In this document: positions 42,506 through 62,505 of the stretch, piece after piece
How positions within the stretch are numbered: position 1 is the stretch's first letter
Layout of the letters: the number at the start of each line of letters is the position of its first letter
From: Rhodamnia argentea
Lineage: Eukaryota > Streptophyta > Magnoliopsida > Myrtales > Myrtaceae
NCBI RefSeq assembly: GCF_020921035.1
Contig: NC_063157.1
Span: 21,221,015 to 21,285,014 of the forward strand
Length of the DNA: 64,000 nucleotides
Direction: 5' to 3'
Made by a program: the position numbers and the translations under genes
The notes under the pieces: model-generated
The model's input: only the letters and a program-made list of their open reading frames with translations
What the model was told of the DNA's origin: nothing
Databases searched by the model: none

Positions 42506-44880
42506 TTAACAAAACTTCCAATGGTTATTGCAGTTAACACAAGTGACGTATGTCGTCATTGGTTCGTCCGCGCTCCTCGTCTGCATCTGGTAGTAAGTGC
42601 ATTTTCTCTGGCCGCACCGGCCACACTTGAATTGATCAGTTGTGGCTTTTGGTCCAGCTCCTAGCTCACACTCGAACAAAGCTTTCTGCTTTATCTGTTG
42701 ATTTTGAAGTTGCCTCTCGTCACTAGCCATTTCTTCCGTGGTCATGTTTAGAAGCCTCTCCGGATTGATATAACCAAGAAGAACTTTTCTCCTGAAATCC
42801 AGGTTGTTGGGATCCTTAATATTAAACATTATGGACCTGTACTTCACCTTATGGGCGCCGTTCATACGACCCCAACTTTGGAACATGGTTGACTCAACTG
42901 AAGCAGCGATGCTAGATGGGTCACAAGCATTCACTTCGTTAACGATGTCTTTGCTGGCTTCACCAGAAACTCTGGACAGAGCCTCAAATAGAAGTTCCCG
43001 GACTCTGTCCCTCATCGGGTCGTCGCATTTAGTCACAGAAGCAGACAGCAGCTCAGCAGGATTAGGTGACGATTTGTTCACGTCGCAATTTGGCTTCTGT
43101 TCCTTAGTCGCAGTTATTGTTTCAACCTTGTCACTTCCTTGCAGATTCCTATTACAGACCGCTTTCTCAGTGACACCAACATCCAACCTTGAGATCTTCT
43201 CAGAACCAGGAGTACCATTTCGCTCTGTTTTCCTTACCTTTGTCGCTTCAGACTTAGGAATCCCCTCAATCCGGAAAGAGGAGGATTTTTTAACCTTGTT
43301 TTCCCCGGCTTTTGCAGACTCATTATGATCCACACTGACATTCTTCTTGCATCCATTTGATTCTTCCATAACAATCTGCTTCCATAGCTGAATCAAGTCG
43401 GAAGCAAAAGCTTGTATCTTCTTCCTAGGATGTTTTGTAAGGCGTCTAAGACCTTTCCCAACCTTAGAATTTTCAACCATGTAAGCATACGAATGAGTGA
43501 GGCAAGTAAGCACAAAGGCAGAGGCACATGCAAATTATAGCAGACATTATGAACTCCGAATTATGATATGATGAAGGACTCTTGCCATTTGAGTATGAAT
43601 ATGCAGGTGATAAAACTTCAGTAGCTGGATCATGGAAGGCCTTGGAAACCTATTTTTGCTGAACAGAGTTGGCGAAAGCTTACTTCATTACAGTTAAGGC
43701 CTAATTTTTCGTTTAAGACATGCCAAATAGCTCTTCCAGTATAACTCATGTTATGAAAGATAGCTGTTTGCATGCTAGGGACTACTCGTTCTGTTCAGAG
43801 GGCTAAAACTCAATGGTCATAATTTTGCAGCTCAATGTGAAGTCACTATTGTAATCTTCATACTCGATTGATGCATGTAATAAAGTTCAAAGCTTTCGCT
43901 CTGAGACTTGTTATGCCAACCAAGATTCATGAACTACTTGGGTAGGTAAAAAATCCGCAATTACCCATTACTAAGCCTTCCTACTATTTCATTGATTTTG
44001 AACAATTAAACGAGAGATTTACAGCCTTCCCTTCATGTCACTGGGGGTAAGCTGCTATCTTGAATAGCCTATAGGGAAATGAGCAGGTGACAGTACTATG
44101 ATATTGCAAAACCAAACGGTGGCTTATCCACCTCAAATTTTTTTCAAGGAAACTCGAACTTGTTTAACCGGTTTCCTGGGAAAAATTAGAATTGAAAAGT
44201 CTCACTTGGTGGGATCTCCTCAAAATTAAATACCGAAACATATGTTTACAGAAAAGAAAATAAAATCTTTGGTTGACCGTTTTCACAAAAATAAATGTGT
44301 GGTCTCAACAGCGCAGTTAGAAATCCTATCTGACGCCGCCCTTGACTATATTCCATTGCATTTACTCACATTAAATACGTCAAACAGCAAGCACAATCTA
44401 AAGCTCCACGGTACTCGTAAAGAGAAACTAATTTACGGAAAAGAGAGAGACAATTTCATTGATAACCACATTCTACATAAACAAACGCCGAAAGCAGAAC
44501 AGCATACAGCATCGAGCCTCCTCATCTAATTGTTCAACAAACAAAGCACAATTGAAGAAAACTCACTCTTACAGCTCCTGCTCAGCTGATAACAGAACCA
44601 CGACCATAACAGAGGGACAATGAAAAACAAGCACGCGAGCGAGCAGAATCAAATTGAGCCACGAGCCAAGTGAGAGAAGTAAAATTGGAAAAGGAGATGA
44701 AGAATAGGGATGCACCTGAGTGGAGACGAGGACTTGATAAGTGACAGGGAAGGACTTGAGGCGCTTCAAGGCGTCGATGCATTGCCGTTCCTCGTCGTCT
44801 CCTCCACCTTTCCCATTCACAGCCGTCGCGTCCGCAGCTTTGCTCGCCACTTGAAACACCTCCACCAACTCCGCCTCCAT
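42506..44880 (-). CDS. TFIIS: Transcription elongation factor TFIIS
   Basis: Nuclear factor that rescues backtracked RNA polymerase II by stimulating transcript cleavage. Two exons on the minus strand (44880-44716 and 43462-42506) give 373 residues, close to the length I recall for Arabidopsis TFIIS (378). Domain I (LW/TFS2N) is split by a 1.25-kb intron: CIDALKRLKSFPVTYQVL in exon 1, then VGKGLRRLTKHPRKKIQ in exon 2. Domain II (about residues 205-315) includes RDRVRELLFEAL and KYRSIMFNIKDPNN. The C-terminal zinc ribbon has CGRCGQRKC and CVNCNNHWKFC. The catalytic acidic pair lies in RSADEPMTTYV. The ATG at 44880 begins MEAELVEVFQVA, the usual start; the in-frame upstream TTG is not used. Confidence 0.95.
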
Positions 44881-45980
44881 CTCTCTCTCCCTCCCTTCCT
44901 TCAAGCTTCAGCTTCAAGAACCTCAACACACAGCACATATCAATCACTCCACATCCAAAAACCACCTCAAAACGCAGAGACAAGAGACACAAAGAAGGAA
45001 AAGATAGAAAAAAAAAAAAAACATCCTTTTCCAAACAAAAAGGCCCAAAACACCATCTAATATTAAGCAAACAACATCAATTATCCCAGGAACAAAAAGA
45101 TCAGCGAGAATAAGATGTTAAACGTAGCAAAGATTCCATCTATTTAGCCTCTGCATGCAACGACAAGCGACCTCCGCCGCTCGAAGAGGAGATACGAGCC
45201 GGGAACAGAAACAACGAAAGCGGAAGAGAAAAAGGAACGGACAACGCCGTGAGAAGACAAAATGCGGACTTACAGATGAGAAGCTCGGACGAGACTCCGA
45301 GGTGAAGATGGCTGTCACAAGAGAGTGCGAAGAAGAAGAAGAACAACAAAGGAAGGAAGGAAGGAAGGAGAAAAGGGCGTGAGCTGCTGGGACGCAGCGT
45401 ATAAATAGGAGAGGAGGGTTGGGCGAATGTGAATCTGACGGTTAATAGGGAGGCCCACGTGGGAATATCCTGGATTTTCCTCTCATCGACTTTCCTTTTT
45501 CCTTTTCTATTTATTTTTGGGTTGCCCAACTACTTACTTGTTAAGTGTGTTTAGCAAGCTTGGACCCAAAAAAAAAAAAAGTGTGTTTAGCAAGCCCTTA
45601 AGATTTATTTTTTCTTATATTTCGAAATACGAGCATTTCTATTTTTATTTTATTTTTTGGTCGGAAAATATTTCTATTTCGACACATGGAGCTTTATTTA
45701 TTTATTTATTTCGAAGTAAGAGTATTTCCATTTCGAAGCATGGAACATATTTCCTACTTTTCGATTTTCAAACATAATCTTATATTTATTTATTTATTTC
45801 AATCGTTTAGATAGTGTTTGGAGAGCAGATAATTAATGATGTTTTTTTTTTTTTAAGGTAAGTATATATTGATCATTCAAAAAGCTAGGTACAAAGGAGC
45901 CGGACACAAAAAAGTTAATTAATGATGTTTTAATAACAAGAAAAACGAAGATATTTTTGTTTCGAAAAGAATAAGGAGGA
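44881..45980. other. Upstream region of TFIIS
   Basis: The TFIIS leader probably runs to about 45350 through purine-rich sequence with GAA and GGAAG repeats. A GTATAAATAG box near 45401 is on the plus strand, so it is unlikely to serve TFIIS. From 45480 the DNA is AT-rich, with short ATTT/TTTA repeats at about 45690-45800. Confidence 0.4.
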
Positions 45981-46998
45981 GGGAAAAATCCAAAAAAGGG
46001 CACGAAGTCTTCAAATTTTCTCAAATAAGGGCCCCAAGTGAACTATGCTTCAAATAAGGGCTCAAAGTGACATAATATGTTTCAATTAAGGGCCCGAAGT
46101 GATCATAATGTTTCAAAAAAGGGTCCGGCCTGAAGGGCGTTTTCGTCATTTCACATTTTAATTTTTTTATTCATTTTTTCTCTTTTCTCCGATTTATGTA
46201 AATAAAAAAAACAAAAAAAAACAAAAAAACCTTCACAGGCGGGAGGCCCCCTCCCTTTGTGGCCGCCGGCCCGCCGCCGGCCCCACCGCCGGTGGGGGGT
46301 CGGCGGGCGGGGAGAAGGCTGGTGGGGTCGCCGGCGCGCGCCGGCGACCCCGCCCGGTCGAGGCGAGGGCCTCGGCCCTCGCCAAAACCGGGAGAGGGTC
46401 GGGCCCTCTCCCGGATCGCCGGCCGTCGCCCGTCGGCCGGTGGGGGTCGCCTTGACCGGGCGACCCCGACCCAGTCCGGGCGACGGCCGGGCGGTCCCGA
46501 TCCGGGCGGGGACCGCCGGCCCCTCACCCAGATCCGGAGAGGGCCCGACCCTCTCCCGGTTTTGGCGAGGGCCGAGGCCCTCGCCTGAGGGCGGGGTCGC
46601 CGGCGCTCGCCGAGGCGCCGGCGACCCCGCCAGGCTTTGCTGCCACAGCCCTCCGGCGGTGGGGCGGTGGCCACGAGGCGGGAGGGCTGCCCCTCCCGCC
46701 TGTGAAGGTCCTGTTGACGTTTTTTTTTTTTTTTTTTTTTTTTTTCTGGTGATAAAACAGATAACAAATAAAATAATAATAAAAAAAAATTAAATAAGTA
46801 AAAAGACTAAAATGCCCTTAAATCAGGCCCTTTTTTGAAATTTTATAGTCATTTCAAGCCCTTATTTGAAACAGTGTTCACTTGGGGCCCTTATTTGAAA
46901 AAATATGAGGACTTCGGGCCCTTTTTTGAAACAGTGTTCACTTAGGGCCCTTATTTGAGAAAATCGGAAGACTTCGGGCCCTTTTTTGGATTTTTCCC
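45981..46998. mobile_element. Foldback Mutator-like element with 9-bp target-site duplication
   Basis: The ends are GGGAAAAATCC and its inverse, GGATTTTTCCC. Both sides are flanked by TAAGGAGGA (45972-45980 and 46999-47007), a perfect 9-bp direct repeat. The outer arms (about 45981-46140 and 46810-46998) are made of degenerate ~40-bp tandem units with the core CAAATAAGGGCCC. The middle is GC-rich and also inverted: CTTCACAGGCGGGAGG at about 46232 pairs with its inverse near 46695, and CTCGGCCCTCGCCAAAACC pairs with its inverse around 46560. The whole element can fold into one long hairpin. It encodes no transposase. The 9-bp duplication points to the Mutator superfamily; long subdivided arms fit a foldback-type derivative. 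Confidence 0.85.
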
Positions 46999-47007
46999 TA
47001 AGGAGGA

Positions 47008-47813
47008 GATGGGAATATGAGTGTGCGGCTTGGAACTGGTCCGTTGGGAGCTGTTGGAGGAGGCGCGCTTGTTGCCGCGCGGGTTCGTTGCTCTTCCGGA
47101 CACGTGTCCATCGTCCAACCAAACGCTGACTTGTCTTCTTCCCTTTGTTTTTTTTTTTTTTTTTTTTGCCGGGACGAGAATTGACTGCCGGGCGATGGCT
47201 GCTCGCCAAGTGACACTCTTTGGATCCAAACTTTTACCAATTGACGCACTCGATCACACACTTTTTGCTTTCCTTTTCCGTCGTTTTCCCCATTTTTTTT
47301 TTAAGCTCAGCACTTTTTCTCTCTCTTCGACACGCAAACAATCCCACAAACACAATGTTGAGCGATAGAACTTTCGCCGAGCTTCACCGCGCGCCGGTCA
47401 GCCTGTGGCACCTCTCTGCCGCCCTTCGCCGCCGTGAATGGACCGACATTGTAGCCGTTTCCGGAAAAATAGAAATTACTGACTGCGTAAATTTTTCCTA
47501 CTTTCTTGTATCAAAACTCATCAAGTATAATAAAAATTTGCCATGCTTTAATGTCTTTAATCATGTATATTAATTTTTCGTGTTGAAAGTTATTATGCAT
47601 CTTGAGCAACTTACTCTTAATTACATATCTCGTCGGCCGTGTCAATAAGGAGGAAGCCTCTCCTTATAGATTTGGCTTGGAGCTCTCGGTCAATACTGTC
47701 AACAGGGTACCTACCGCGGGTTGAATGGTAGATGATCAGCAGTAAATGTAATTTATTCACGGTATCTTTTTATTTCCATAACTCTTTGACCTTCCATTTT
47801 TTTCTTGACCTAC
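47008..47813. other. Intergenic region with an unassigned short frame
   Basis: A T-run lies at 47147-47167. A GC-richer plus-strand stretch from the ATG at 47355 to about 47490 codes for ELHRAPVSLWHLSAALRRRE and ends in AT-rich sequence. It may be a chance frame or a gene remnant. No family was recognised. Confidence 0.25.
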
Positions 47814-48197
47814 TTCCCTAAAAAAAATCCCATTTTAAATTAAATCTCAATTCTATCTCAATTTTTTTTTATCTAAATAAAATCATAAACAATCGCTCTA
47901 ACTCTAAATCTGCCCGCGCATCTAAAAAAAGCCACTAATTTATTCGAAATTTACTATTGATATCAGAAAGCCGCTATTATTTCATACGAAGATAATGATA
48001 TTAACAAAGTTGCAAATTCTAATGATGAACTTTTAATTAAACCCAATGTTAACAATTTTAAAAAAACTAGTGACGGCTTTTTCACGCAGAGACAAATTGA
48101 GAGTTAAGGAGTAAAAGTTTGAGATTATTTTTCAAGTCAAAAGAAAGTTTGGAGCATAATAAAGATTTCGCCTAAAGTCCGAAGATTTTTTAGGGAA
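47814..48197. repeat. Short inverted-repeat element, family of 52071-52715
   Basis: The left end is TTCCCTAAAAAAAATCCCA; the inverse of the right end is TTCCCTAAAAAATCTTC. Inside the arms are repeated units of the type 'atctcaa..ctat/ctcc' and an AAAAAAGCC...CTA stretch present in both orientations. Length 384 bp. No coding content and no clear target-site duplication. Confidence 0.5.
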
Positions 48198-48907
48198 TTA
48201 GCCATTTTCCTCTTTCTGCTTGCAAAGAGCAAGCCTTGGAACTCTTTCCAGTCTCTGCATGATCAAAAACTGCCTTACTAGGAAAAGACTCATTCCCCTG
48301 TAACATTGATGATTTTGGGGCTTACCGATTATTGTTAAAAAGAATCCCAATCTCCCCTGCAGCTTTGATTCGTGAAATCCAGTGCTCACCAGCTCCGCTG
48401 GGCAAATGTGCAAACAAATCCAACTACAGTTCTCCAAAGATGTCCCAATGAAGTAACATTGACCCTACTTCACGCTGCGGGTGGGCTGAGTATCAGAACC
48501 CCCCAGCCCTCCCCTTCCTTACCAAAAAGTCATCACATAACAGTATGATCTTTACTCTATACCATTTTGAAAGGCGGCACAGTGCGTATCTCATTCTTAA
48601 GATGCATTAGGCCCAGAAGCATTCAGCTGATCAAACTTTTTCACCTGTTATGGCCATCGATGATTGCTGCAACACGCGATGGCAAAAAAAGAAAAAAAGG
48701 GACCAGAGGGAGATTAAAGAATTAAAGAGTGCTCTCGAAGACAAAGTATTCATTGAATAATCTGGAATTTAATGCCGAAAAAGGCCCCAGAATGGTACTG
48801 GCAACTGAAACTGCATTATTCAAGTTCACTTTTGTTCATGAACTCTCTCAAAAGAAAGGAGAAAAGGCAATGACAAAATCGGAATTGCCCAACTTTAACT
48901 CCCCAAA
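48198..48907. other. 3' flank of QCR10
   Basis: The region downstream of the minus-strand QCR10 stop contains its 3' UTR. No other gene is supported. Confidence 0.4.
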
Positions 48908-50870: not shown

Positions 50871-52070
50871 GGCGTGGGTTAGCTTAATAATGATGTTAAA
50901 TCCCGCCATCATAATCTAATGTCTAATATGACTAATTCGGTATTTATTTAGAAGAGTTTACGGATGTCATTATTGTACTCGCCCTACCGTCCATACTATA
51001 GGAAAACGACTTGCAATTAATGATGTTTTATTTACCGAAGGGGAATCGATGGATTTGACGAAAACGCGATCTAAATCAGCTACACGTGTCGCTTCACAAT
51101 ATAATAATTCACCGACTTTTGTCCTCGTCCCTGTTTTAATTAACATATAAAATTAATTAGAATTTATGATGTGATTTCGAGCGGTTAAAATGTCCAATCT
51201 CAAGAAAATAGAAAACTTCGTGATCATTGGAGTGTAAAAAAAAACCTAACCGAACCGAACCGGAAATTTTGAATCTTTTCCGTGGTTTTTATTTTGGCCA
51301 AGTAATGAGGATTAAAGGAGAGGGAGATGGACAATGCGTCTGCTAAAACCATTGTTTCATGCTGGATGAATGTATGGTTTGCTCAATTGAGAAAAAAGTA
51401 CAAGTAATTTTAACAGCATAAATGCTCTTTTTTTTATTAAAATAAATTCACTGGAAATATGGCAAACAGGAATAAGTACACGTTTTGGTTATTAATCAAT
51501 CGGGCCTTTTAGGTTACAATTTGGTTAATCGACGGTTTAGGTGCAGCCTAGTCCAAGCTCGTCATCAACAAAATTCCGATCCGACGAGGAAGATCCTACC
51601 CGGCACTTGGGTTTGTGGCCACGTGGCATTAGTATCTTAAAAAAAAAGACCTCTTCGTTTCGCCCATAAGACATCTCTCTAGAAATTACGCTCCACGATT
51701 GTAAAAATTGCGAGGCGCTTCTTAAGAAGCATATGAAGTTACTAGTTGAGTTGTTATTTTAAAAGATTAATTTTCGAAATATTATCCGTTCTTATTACGT
51801 ACGTAATTGACATTTGAAATGTCAAAAACTTCTAGTAATGGAATATATTAAGTAAGAAAAAGGACGGCTAGCATCATGGTGCCATACTGCTATCTATAAT
51901 TGTTCCTCTCCAACCTCGTCCTTGTTAGCATTTAGTGAGAATTGAATTCAATGTGCAGGGGAATCCCCCACTCACCTTTGCCTCTCATACTCTCTCACTT
52001 ATTGTCCTTGTCATGGACAGTGACATGTCGACGACAACTCGGTCGGATTCAATGAATCTATTCCGCTAAA
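50871..52070. other. Intergenic region, nothing recognised
   Basis: AT-rich DNA with no supported gene. A short tandem CCGAAC unit occurs near 51250-51265. Confidence 0.4.
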
Positions 52071-52715
52071 TTCTCTAAAAGACTTACCAGCTTTATATCA
52101 AGTTTCAAGTCTTTTCTCAAACAATTTGTTTATCTTAGAAAAAAATCATTAATATTATGTTCAGCCTCAAATCTACCCCAGATTTTTTCTTATCTCATAA
52201 AAGATCCCAAGCTTTAGTCTCAATCCCAAATCTACCCTAAAAAAATTTTTATCTAAGAAAAAATCACCAATTTTTAATATAATCTCATATTTACTCCATT
52301 ATCCCTCTGTCCAAATATCGCCCTTAGTCGTTTATAATTTTCAGACCCTAGAGTTGTTTCACCTTGGAGAATTTATTTGTTGGGGCAGATTTAATATCCA
52401 CGTAGAAATGCCACGTCAGCCCGTACTTATTGCCCATTACTTTGCTAATGTAAGTGTTTTTATCAACGTGAAAATGCCACTTCATATTGGAACTGGACCA
52501 CTGGATAGATTTAAAAATACATTGAAAATTTATGATTTTAAACAAAATTCAGAGCAGATTTGGTACTATACCTAAAATTTGGGGTTTTTTTTTTCAAATC
52601 AAAAAGAAGTTCGGGGCAGAATTGAAACTAAACCTAAAGTTGAGGGTTTTTACCGGGACAAAAAAAGTTTGGAGTGGATTTGAGACTAAACCTAAAGTTG
52701 GATTTTTTTAGGGAA
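52071..52715. repeat. Inverted-repeat element with tandem sub-units
   Basis: The left arm (52071-52300) contains several CTCAAATCTACCCC/CCCAAATCTACCCT units. The right arm (52540-52715) contains the inverse pattern, AAACCTAAAGTTG with GGCAGA/GTGGATTTGAGACT. The right end TTTTTTTAGGGAA matches the end of the element at 47814-48197. No transposase; the target-site duplication was not found. Confidence 0.5.
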
Positions 52716-53209
52716 TTAGGCTGAAGTGTTCATAGTATAAATGCACAAATATCATAAAGCTATATTCACTTCTGAAAAACAAATAATTAAAAAAATTAAA
52801 AAATAATAGCTCATATTGCTTGAAATAATTAATTCATGAATAAAACTTCATTGTTTACATTAATTCATATCTAAATATTTTTGCAAAAAAAAAATCATTT
52901 AGTAAATAATATAAATGATTATTGTTTTGAAAATATTTTTTAAATTATTCAATTTCCAAGCCTAAATTCCTAAGTTTATTACATATCCGAATAAATTCGT
53001 CCAACGGCCCGTGGGAAAACTCCTCCCGTCTCAAGCCCATTTAATGATCGAAAAGCTTAGCAACATTTATTGTATGAACAATAGGTGGTGGTGTCATAGA
53101 GAGAGGTCCGAAAAATAAATGCAAATTTAATTTTTCTCTTCCAAAAACGACACTGTAGAGTTCCTGGTCGGATCAAAGGGACCTTATGACGATATCATCG
53201 CCTTATGGC
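52716..53209. other. AT-rich spacer
   Basis: No gene, RNA or clear repeat seen. Strongly AT-rich between 52740 and 52990. Confidence 0.4.
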
Positions 53210-53965: not shown

Positions 53966-54736
53966 CCAATTCGGTTATAAAATTTTAAATTTTGTCAATT
54001 TTGTTTTGATATCTACGCGAAATTATAATTAAGACTCACTAGGCGATTTTCACCGAAAATTGTCAATGTCATAGTCCAATCATCACCGATCGTTCTCCGT
54101 GGCACACCGCCAAGTTAAGGATGTCCTGTAAAAATTGATCGGAAAGATTACGTTGGAATATCGCGCAAGGGTTTGAAATTAAATTGGTGAAATTGAAAAG
54201 TTCATGACTGAATTGGTATCCGTATAATAAATTTAAGGTTGTTTGAATAATTTCTCTGTTTTCAAGAGTGCTTTGCTCTGACGACAGATGTAGCAATCGA
54301 CCCCATTCCACGTGGGCCGAAACCTCGTAAGGAGCAAGCAAACGGGATGGTGACCACTCAGGGGGTGGACCTTACCTATCAGTCAGTTTTTTTTTTTTTG
54401 GTCGAGTACTTATGAACCAGTTAAGAAGGCCTCTTCACTGAATGTGTACTCTGTTGTCAGAAGCTTCGAATGAACCGGTTAAGACGGCCTCAGTGTAAGA
54501 TATTCCGATTCTCGATTAAGTTTCTTTGATCGCTAAAAACGAGCATTTTTTTTTCCTATTTGTCAAAAGAGATTGTTCAATGGCCGTAACGTAATTGGTT
54601 AGTGGAGATTCAAAAGAATTAGGCGAAGCAATTGTCCGTGAACGACGGAAGAATCACTTGCCCAGTGATAGATTATGCCTGAATTTATGTGTCAATATCC
54701 ATATCTTATGAAGATTTCGGTTGCTAAAAATAGAAT
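53966..54736. other. Intergenic region, nothing recognised
   Basis: No supported gene. Two similar ATGAACCAGTTAAGA/GAATGAACCGGTTAAGA stretches at about 54412 and 54468 form a short direct repeat of about 57-bp spacing. Confidence 0.35.
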
Positions 54737-55348
54737 GGGAAAAGTTGTCCAAAAAAATTTAAACCTATCTTACTTTAGTTAATTCAGTCATAAACCTTTC
54801 GATTTTGCTACTTAAGCCCTAAACCGTTTGGCACTTTACCAATTGAATCTATCCGGCCATTTTTAACTCGAAATCATTGACTTGGACAATTTATTTAAAA
54901 TTTAAAATTTTAATTTTTCCTTTTTATTTCTTTATTTTCGTTCCTTTTCTATCAAGTCTAGCGAGGGTCGCCGACCCTCGCGTGTGGTCGGCGAGGCCTC
55001 GCCGAACTTGATAAGAAAAAAATAGAAAGAAAAATAAAAAGGAAATGAAAAAAATAAAAAAAATAGAAAAAATATTTCTTAAAAAAAATATGAAAATTTA
55101 TCCACATTGGCATCAATCGCCCTTTTGGTACCACCAGCTTTCAAGTCATCGATTTCTAGTTAAAACTAGTCGGATGGATTCAATTAGCGAAGTATCAAAA
55201 TGTTTAGGGCTTCATTGGCAAAATGGAACGATTTAGGACCGAATTAGCCAAATGGCAATAGGTTTAGGATTCAATTGACAAATTTGAACGGTTTAAGACT
55301 GAATTAGCCAAATGACAATAGGTTTATGACTTTTTAGATAACGGTCCC
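54737..55348. repeat. 612-bp foldback element
   Basis: The left end is GGGAAAAGTTGTCC; the inverse of the right end is GGGACCGTTATCT. Both arms carry ~35-bp units of the type 'aattcagtc(c)taaacc...ttgccatttgg' in opposite orientation. Next inward, a T-rich stretch on the left (CCTTTTTATTTCTTTATTTT) mirrors an A-rich one on the right. The centre (54957-55016) is a GC-rich hairpin, GCGAGGGTCGCCGACCCTCG, followed by GGTCGGCGAGG, flanked by ATCAAGT and ACTTGAT. No perfect target-site duplication was found. Confidence 0.65.
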
Positions 55349-56700
55349 GATAAAATGCAAAAGGCACAGAGATTTTCTTTCTCGAACCTATATTGTCGTG
55401 GTTCGAGTGCCGTCAAAGCTCGAGACATGCCAAACTTGCCAACCGAAAGAGATTGGAAAGATAAGAAGATAAACGAAGAAAAGAGGGTCCTTGCTTCCAA
55501 ATCCAACTTGACAAATTGCTCCACCGTTTTTGTCCCTATTCACCACGCATCTACGAGTTAAAGCACACAAAAGGGCCTCGAGGATCGGCAGGTAAATTGC
55601 ACATTAACATTAGAATAATCCTAATTATGGACATCGACGACATGATTAAGGAAGCCTAGGGTTTCACGTGGATTTGGGACGGCCAATTGGAGATAAAAGG
55701 TTCAAAGCAGAAATGTTATCTCTCAACACACAAGTTCTTTTAGCTTTCAAATCCGATCTTGTACTGGAAAGATTAGGATACGCACCAAACATCATGCCGC
55801 TTTGACATTTTCGTGCCGTTCTCTTGTCTGCTTATGCTCCGTTTTCTTCTTTACATGGCGTTTTCAGGCTTTAACTATTTTCCTTTCAGTCAAGAAAAAG
55901 TCGCATGTAAGGAAAAAAATGAAAACATGATCGATCGAGACACCAATTAGTGACTTGGAAAAAGTCCAACACCACCCCCCCCCCCCCTACAAAAAAAAAA
56001 AAAAACACACCCTTTTAAGTGGATAAAAGTTATGAAAATCAGAAGATGTATCTAGATGTCGATAGTAATGTCATTGTAAGAAACTAGAAATCTTCAACAC
56101 GAGCAAGTGCATGGAAACCGGTATAAAATTCATGCCGTCGTTCTAGAGGCCAATCGATCTTTGATGGTTAAAGTTTCAGAAAAAAGAAAAGAAAAGGAGT
56201 AGCCGATATGATACCTCGAAATGCAAATTTTTTCCGCCGGGGGGGAAAGCATAACATTCGCCGGAGACAATAATTGAAGGTGCGCAAAAGTTAACCGAAG
56301 TTTCGGAAATCTTTGTGAAATGTTCTTGCATTATGAGGGGGCCAAGCCGACCCTCTTTCTTTTTTTTTTCTTGGTACAGAGTCGGAAGACACAAAAGGAG
56401 TAGTACTAAGCACTAAGTGAGTAAAGGGGTAGTAAGAAGATAAAGTCGAAAAACAGTGCGTCGGTCTCTTGCGTGGCCGTTCTTATCTCAACTGCAAGCT
56501 CACTCTTTCTGTAAAGAATCCAAAAAAGAGAAAAAAAAAAAAAACGATTGGACCCTTTTAAACAAAGCTTTTGAATCTTCTAAATTTATTGACCAAAACA
56601 AAAAAAAAATATTCTCAATTAAAAAAAAAATCTGATTATTGTTGCCAAAATTCTGCAATTTGTTTTCTTTTGCTTAGACCGGTTCGACCTATCGTTTCTC
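55349..56700. other. Intergenic region, nothing recognised
   Basis: No supported gene. A C13-type run followed by an A-run (about 55974-56005) is simple sequence. Small frames at 55355-55570 overlap on both strands without motifs. Confidence 0.4.
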
Positions 56701-62116: not shown

Positions 62117-62505
62117 GTTAATATCACGAAAAAATCCAAACCGGTACACTTGTAATAAATTTATTCCGGATTATTTTTTTACAATAAAAAATCTCAAACT
62201 AATACACCTATAACAAATTTATCCAAAACTAAATTTTTGACAATTGAAAATCCCAAACTCGTTAGTTTTAGTTACATTTTATCATCATAATGTTGAGTTG
62301 GATGACACGTGGTAATTAAAGAGTTTATCATCTGTTTGTCACATCTGTATCGGTTTGAGATTTTTCGTGATATTAACCAAATTTAATGGAGAAATGATAA
62401 ATTCATCGCAAGTGTATCAATTTGGGATTTTTGATGGTCAAAAAAATAGTTTATGATAAATTTGTCGGGTAAACCAATTTGGGTTTTTTTTTGTGTGGTC
62501 GTAAC
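62117..62505. repeat. Short inverted-repeat element with tandem units
   Basis: The left end is GTTAATATCACGAAAAAATCC; the inverse of the right end is GTTACGACCACACAAAAAAA. Both arms hold units of the type AAATCCCAAAC...ACACTTGTAATAAATTTAT in opposite orientation, including a mirrored TTTTCGTGATATTAAC at 62360. Length about 390 bp, no coding content. Confidence 0.5.

Follow-up and report, generated by a model that had tools for sequence, protein, structure and literature searches.

Several described transposons resemble the element analysed here. Foldback (FB4) of Drosophila is non-autonomous and has long inverted arms with internal modules and a variable middle (PMC2955051). Tm1 of Meloidogyne and Muta1 of Aedes make 9-bp (in Muta1 8-9 bp) target-site duplications (TSDs), have arms built of tandem subrepeats and include non-autonomous copies whose middles are heterogeneous (PMC3169594, PMC5225508). 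In plants, the foldback Mutator-like elements (MULEs) MuTAnT of Medicago and FARE of Arabidopsis possess long palindromic arms and a foldback shape (PMC4486113), and Abermu MULEs, which are likened here by description, have 9-bp TSDs and GGG...CCC ends, with homologues in dicots too (PMC9168764). In two further papers (PMC3310237, PMC7385966) the word foldback is not used. Among the titles and abstract openings retrieved for foldback or palindromic Mutator elements, Eucalyptus Mutator/MULE elements and Myrtaceae foldback elements, which included few subscription papers, none describes the family reported below.

Here, we analyse an inverted-repeat element of Rhodamnia argentea, which is very probably a non-autonomous Mutator (MULE)-type cut-and-paste DNA transposon with a foldback structure.

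Structure of the element and its surroundings

The window, i.e., the whole stretch of 64,000 nucleotides that was analysed, corresponds to C8:21221015-21285014 in a 346.7-Mb genome of 74 contigs, in which C1-C11 sum to approximately 343 Mb; a set of eleven chromosomes would be in keeping with Myrtaceae. A domain scan of ten reading frames in the window (two of them matchless) identified plant-type genes for ribosomal L16/L10e, an LRR receptor kinase, an MFS transporter, EDR4 zinc ribbon, SNF2/PHD, TFIIS (42506-43534, minus strand) and two WRKY proteins, and the TFIIS reading frame lies approximately 2.4 kb from the foldback element. An Rfam scan of the window gave no matches at the gathering score. 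The parts of the element are listed in Table 1.

Table 1. Parts of the foldback element and their positions in the window
Feature	Position	Strand	Basis
Left target-site duplication TAAGGAGGA	45972..45980	.	direct sequence reading
Left TIR arm, with the 21-bp end GGGAAAAATCCAAAAAAGGGC, 5 units (29-32 bp) and an AT-rich spacer	45981..46230	+	
GC-rich (0.80) core of nested inverted repeats	46231..46709	.	
Perfect 51-bp inverted arm pair inside core	46361-46411 / 46536-46586		
Right arm, with an AT-rich spacer (including a T26 run), 6 units (29-31 bp) and the 21-bp end	46710..46998	-	
Right target-site duplication TAAGGAGGA	46999..47007	.	direct sequence reading

The element spans 1,018 bp (45981-46998), the 21 bases at one end are repeated perfectly in inverted orientation at the other, and the flanking copies of TAAGGAGGA match at 9/9 positions. 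Alignment of one half to the other runs from end to end with a local score of 413, whereas the highest-scoring of 200 dinucleotide shuffles reached 40, and the runner-up outside the element among the window's 1,018-bp stretches (500-bp steps) scored 113. An earlier sequence-only reading, which had reported an inverted repeat over all 1,018 bp with a perfect 9-bp flanking duplication, was therefore correct in both respects. Its wording "fully palindromic" is apt for the end-to-end pairing but overstates its quality, since left/right identity is 93.5% in the outermost 62 nt (gaps ignored) and 83% in the units and AT-rich spacer; one stretch of the core is 100% identical across 73 ungapped columns. 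The GC-rich core that it noted was also recovered (GC 0.80 in 46231-46709, compared to 0.33 and 0.31 in the left and right arms and 0.41 in the window), whereas the tandem units, given there as ~40 bp, measure 29-32 bp. These units start approximately with CAAAWAAGGGCCC and are spaced by 31, 29, 32 and 31 bp in the left arm (5 units) and by 31, 29, 31, 29 and 31 bp in the right arm (6 units). The predicted RNA fold approximates one long hairpin (-685.5 kcal/mol, a raw value without a shuffle baseline). As the same reading had stated, no transposase was recognised inside the element, and the four open frames spanning the core had zero Pfam matches at E 0.01.

Other inverted repeats are present in the window. 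One of them (54740-55350) is a second inverted-repeat element with units of ~30 bp (60-bp super-period), a small GC-rich core GCGAGGGTCGCCGACCCTCGC and a possible imperfect 9-bp duplication, AATAGAATG / GATAAAATG, matching by eye at 7/9 positions; its relatives are many and diverged (of 1,832 first-look candidates 40 were scored, and the best match other than the element itself has 73%). Another (62118-62494), an inverted repeat composed of tandem units (AAAAAATCTCAAACT..ACAAATTTATCC), belongs to a kind into which the foldback family inserts elsewhere; the family copy L011 lies within a related repeat. Three weak inverted repeats at 52052-52733 (score 67), 47810-48201 (score 46) and 1353-1584 (score 63) are perhaps older elements.

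A dispersed family with distinct target-site duplications

When the element was searched against its own genome, 40 loci were scored among 1,679 first-look candidates. The 21-bp end, with up to two mismatches, occurs at 517 genome sites (259 forward and 258 reverse), compared to 4 (1 + 3) for a reversed-pattern control. In prokaryotic contigs the 20-bp end had two matches, both bacterial, which were taken as chance, and the one inspected (L001) lacked an inverted partner; viral contigs scanned with the unit pattern gave no matches.

A first set of 40 copies, comprising the window copy and 39 fetched loci, was delimited by aligning the 62-nt end. Identical 9-mers were found on both sides of 33 of these copies, and all 33 TSDs are distinct. 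They are AT-rich (GC 13%, n=33), and the G-rich TAAGGAGGA of the window copy is atypical for the family. The remaining seven copies match at 8, 7, 6, 6, 4, 3 and 2 of 9 flanking positions, and include L043, whose right end is not recognisable in its stretch. Mispairing the flanks of the first 40 copies as a control gave 9/9 identity in 0 of 1,560 pairings and 8/9 or better in seven. Twenty further stretches (19 end sites and one continuation) yielded 12 paired elements, five with 9/9, four with 8/9, and the other three with 7, 4 and 1 of 9 matches, and ten loci from a search with the core all proved to be full elements (six with 9/9, three with 8/9 and one with 5/9). With the L070 copy (9/9) included, a perfect 9-bp TSD is present in 45 of the 63 copies examined, one of which is without an end, and absent from 18. 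Paired copies measured 463 to 1,254 bp.

The empty-site test joined the flanks of a copy with a single TSD copy and aligned them through the junction. From the 39 junction-spanning matches, self-matches (L011 on itself/L004, which are the same place, L028, L030 and L045) and the weak L019 were set aside. The joined flanks of L011, L015, L029 and L033 match uninterrupted diverged repeats through the junction at ~68-84% identity. Two of these matches fall in the window, at 54727-54873 for L029 (70%) and at 62118-62238 for L011 (74%), and the best match for L015 (82%) is a neighbouring copy of its target repeat, in L008, ~1.6 kb from the L015 insertion. The four empty sites are paralogous, not orthologous. 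The evidence of movement concerns only past insertions, seen through TSDs and empty sites.

The sequence-only reading had suggested a genome search for further copies with 9-bp duplications and named their absence as the result that would count against it; since many such copies exist, that objection falls. It had also proposed a fairly recent insertion, for which the support is moderate: the nearest of 38 other copies lies at a K2P distance of 0.030 in the arms (509 sites), and the nearest-neighbour median over 39 copies is 0.052. The insertion of the window copy is moderately old, and its TSD is intact.

The arms are similar in layout throughout the family. Of 40 copies, 25 show exactly the arrangement of five and six units and 12 more are compatible with it, the deviation being 1-3 bp or one unit with more than two mismatches; the exceptions are L029 and L041, each one unit short, and the single-armed L043. 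Arm length is 200-303 bp (39 copies). In these 39 copies (L043 left out), all 78 of 78 arms have the corresponding arm of a different copy as their nearest neighbour, so the arms are old, distinct and not homogenised, and on these sequence relationships the two arms travel as a pair in transposition. Distances are 0.122 to the corresponding arm in other copies, 0.232 to the own partner and 0.241 to the opposite arm of other copies; gene conversion as the process keeping the arms alike was ruled out because the own-partner distance is approximately equal to the opposite-arm distance.

Length and origin of the core

Length variation within the family resides in the core rather than in the arms, with core lengths of 40 to 759 bp (39 copies). 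Short cores (<300 bp) are found in 13 of these 39 copies and are scattered on the arm tree, where core length requires 11 Fitch changes, compared to a mean of 11.1 for shuffled labels (the observed value was not exceeded in 568 of 1,000 shuffles). A single short-core subfamily was ruled out, as 11 changes are no fewer than with shuffled labels. Core length does not track the arm phylogeny, and long cores from distant branches can be aligned to the window core across most of their length. It therefore seems that the long core is the ancestral state and that the variation is likely to stem from recurrent contraction; cores could also be mixed through recombination among copies.

Deletion ends were studied in 17 hand-picked pairs of aligned copies. 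In nine of them, representing six distinct short copies, one dominant deletion of 287-444 bp is centred 5.5-50 bp from the centre of the element, and direct repeats of 4-14 bp are present at its ends in eight cases and absent in one (a raw count, without a random-deletion baseline); the other eight pairs, which show scattered gaps (one against a longer copy), were not used. Palindromes are known to suffer deletions that span a hairpin and end in direct repeats, and the observed ends fit this behaviour. The core would contract repeatedly, probably when replication or repair jumps over the hairpin from one short direct repeat to the other, a step that the deletion ends suggest. In copies with a core longer than 300 bp, the core halves are more alike than the arms in 19 of 26 (means 0.895 and 0.871), which represents only a weak tendency towards core homogenisation.

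A more complete scheme is put forward tentatively, and we regard it as somewhat more apt to fail than to hold. Copies would start with a near-full palindromic core, perhaps built by the element itself through template switching, and would collapse independently and repeatedly near the centre and at short direct repeats that the self-palindromic modules of the core create, whereas the outer arms, as putative binding sites, would keep their five and six units. If this is true, the family is a natural record of the behaviour of a long GC-rich palindrome in a plant chromosome.

The core might instead be captured host DNA, acquired in a Pack-MULE-like manner and duplicated later in inverted form. 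That different middles occur is evident from L052, L054 and L067, where the same arms carry different, non-palindromic GC-rich cores, one of which has been amplified (108 first-look candidates, 40 scored). However, all 40 scored matches of the window core, from 206 candidates, lie between family ends (two judged from end coordinates alone) and include no donor locus outside the family, which leaves the suggestion of captured DNA in the sequence-only reading unsupported, and the core frames lack a Pfam match. Capture is unlikely, and a recurrently contracting core is the reading that we prefer.

Other kinds of middle were observed. The three copies L052:316-1424, L054:4773-5996 and L067:4739-5983 have the same ends and share a common non-palindromic GC-rich middle, which was amplified separately. 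At least 15 of the 40 scored matches of the L054 core adjoin listed family end sites (counted by eye), and its frames had zero Pfam matches at E 0.01. L046 and L048 contain part of the usual core first and then other DNA. A third kind of core links L050 with L062 and L065 with L069 by DNA, and its frames are similar across all four.

Mobilization and comparison with described elements

MULE TSDs are 8-11 bp (PMC6446971), usually 9 bp. In the present family, perfect 9-bp duplications in 45 of 63 copies (0 of 1,560 in the control) are combined with long terminal inverted repeats (arms of 200-303 bp, with window ends perfect over 21 bp), and the inverted arms consist of short tandem units, as in foldback elements. 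A 9-bp TSD by itself is compatible with other superfamilies; together with the long arms with units, the GGG...CCC ends and the plant host, it points to the Mutator superfamily. There is strong support that the family works like a non-autonomous MULE, and it is probable that it is one.

A transposase encoded elsewhere, presumably by a MULE, would bind the element ends in trans, and the ~30-bp units, approximately three helical turns apart, are probably arrayed binding sites. The enzyme would then excise the element, which would insert at a 9-bp staggered cut whose repair would generate the duplication.

The search for an autonomous partner covered 150 scored MULE transposases from 474 first-look candidates. 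None of these 150 PF10551 matches lies within 12 kb inward of any of 100 listed end sites (517 in total). In seven transposase loci (L070-L076) no family end pair surrounds the transposase, in stretches of 7.5-9.5 kb each, by which larger elements would be cut. A family copy lies beside the transposase in L070, and L075 contains an old decayed family arm near a 797-aa MULE ORF, with no left arm seen. As no transposase with these ends emerged from this partial search, movement in trans is something that we infer; the Mutator assignment of the sequence-only reading has good structural support (9-bp TSD and long arms). L076:1265-7352 (C6:26058500-26066000) contains a 545-aa MULE-transposase ORF between 147-bp inverted repeats (86%) approximately 6 kb apart, and is a candidate autonomous element with ends unlike those of the foldback family, its repeats being unrelated.

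Mobilization by a transposase of another superfamily, as in the P-type foldback element Galileo, is unlikely. Foldback structures have arisen convergently and are found together with different transposases (PMC3169594), and the absence of scored PF10551 matches near the 100 listed end sites is in keeping with this alternative. However, the TSD is exactly 9 bp in most copies, inside the MULE range, and the genome is rich in MULE transposases. In addition, Galileo-type P elements make TSDs of another length. A MULE-type transposase thus remains the preferred source of mobility. Although assembly artefacts can yield long palindromes, a chance or assembly product is refuted by dozens of loci with common ends and different TSDs and by the asymmetry of five and six units between the arms.

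In one plant genome, the family provides dozens of palindromes, each from an independent insertion and up to ~1 kb long. Such a set of natural copies would make it possible to measure how unstable palindromes are and whether hairpins trigger silencing of nearby genes. The element is a well-formed representative of a type of transposon already known, and the family differs from its described counterparts in several ways. FB4 belongs to another host, and the layout of arm units is nearly fixed in Rhodamnia. Tm1 and Muta1 have units of 12-15 bp in variable number, compared to 29-32 bp and five and six units here, and a transposase has been identified for them. MuTAnT inserts into TA microsatellites and is mostly 200-300 bp (PMC4486113), whereas the Rhodamnia family has AT-rich but varied TSDs and measures 463 to 1,254 bp. 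Abermu is an 8.2-kb autonomous element with TIRs of 138-145 bp, and the term "tandem repeat" is absent from the paper describing it (PMC9168764). In other organisms, foldback elements differ in the number of units among copies and arms (PMC3169594, PMC5225508), and it is worth noting that this number is nearly constant in the Rhodamnia family.
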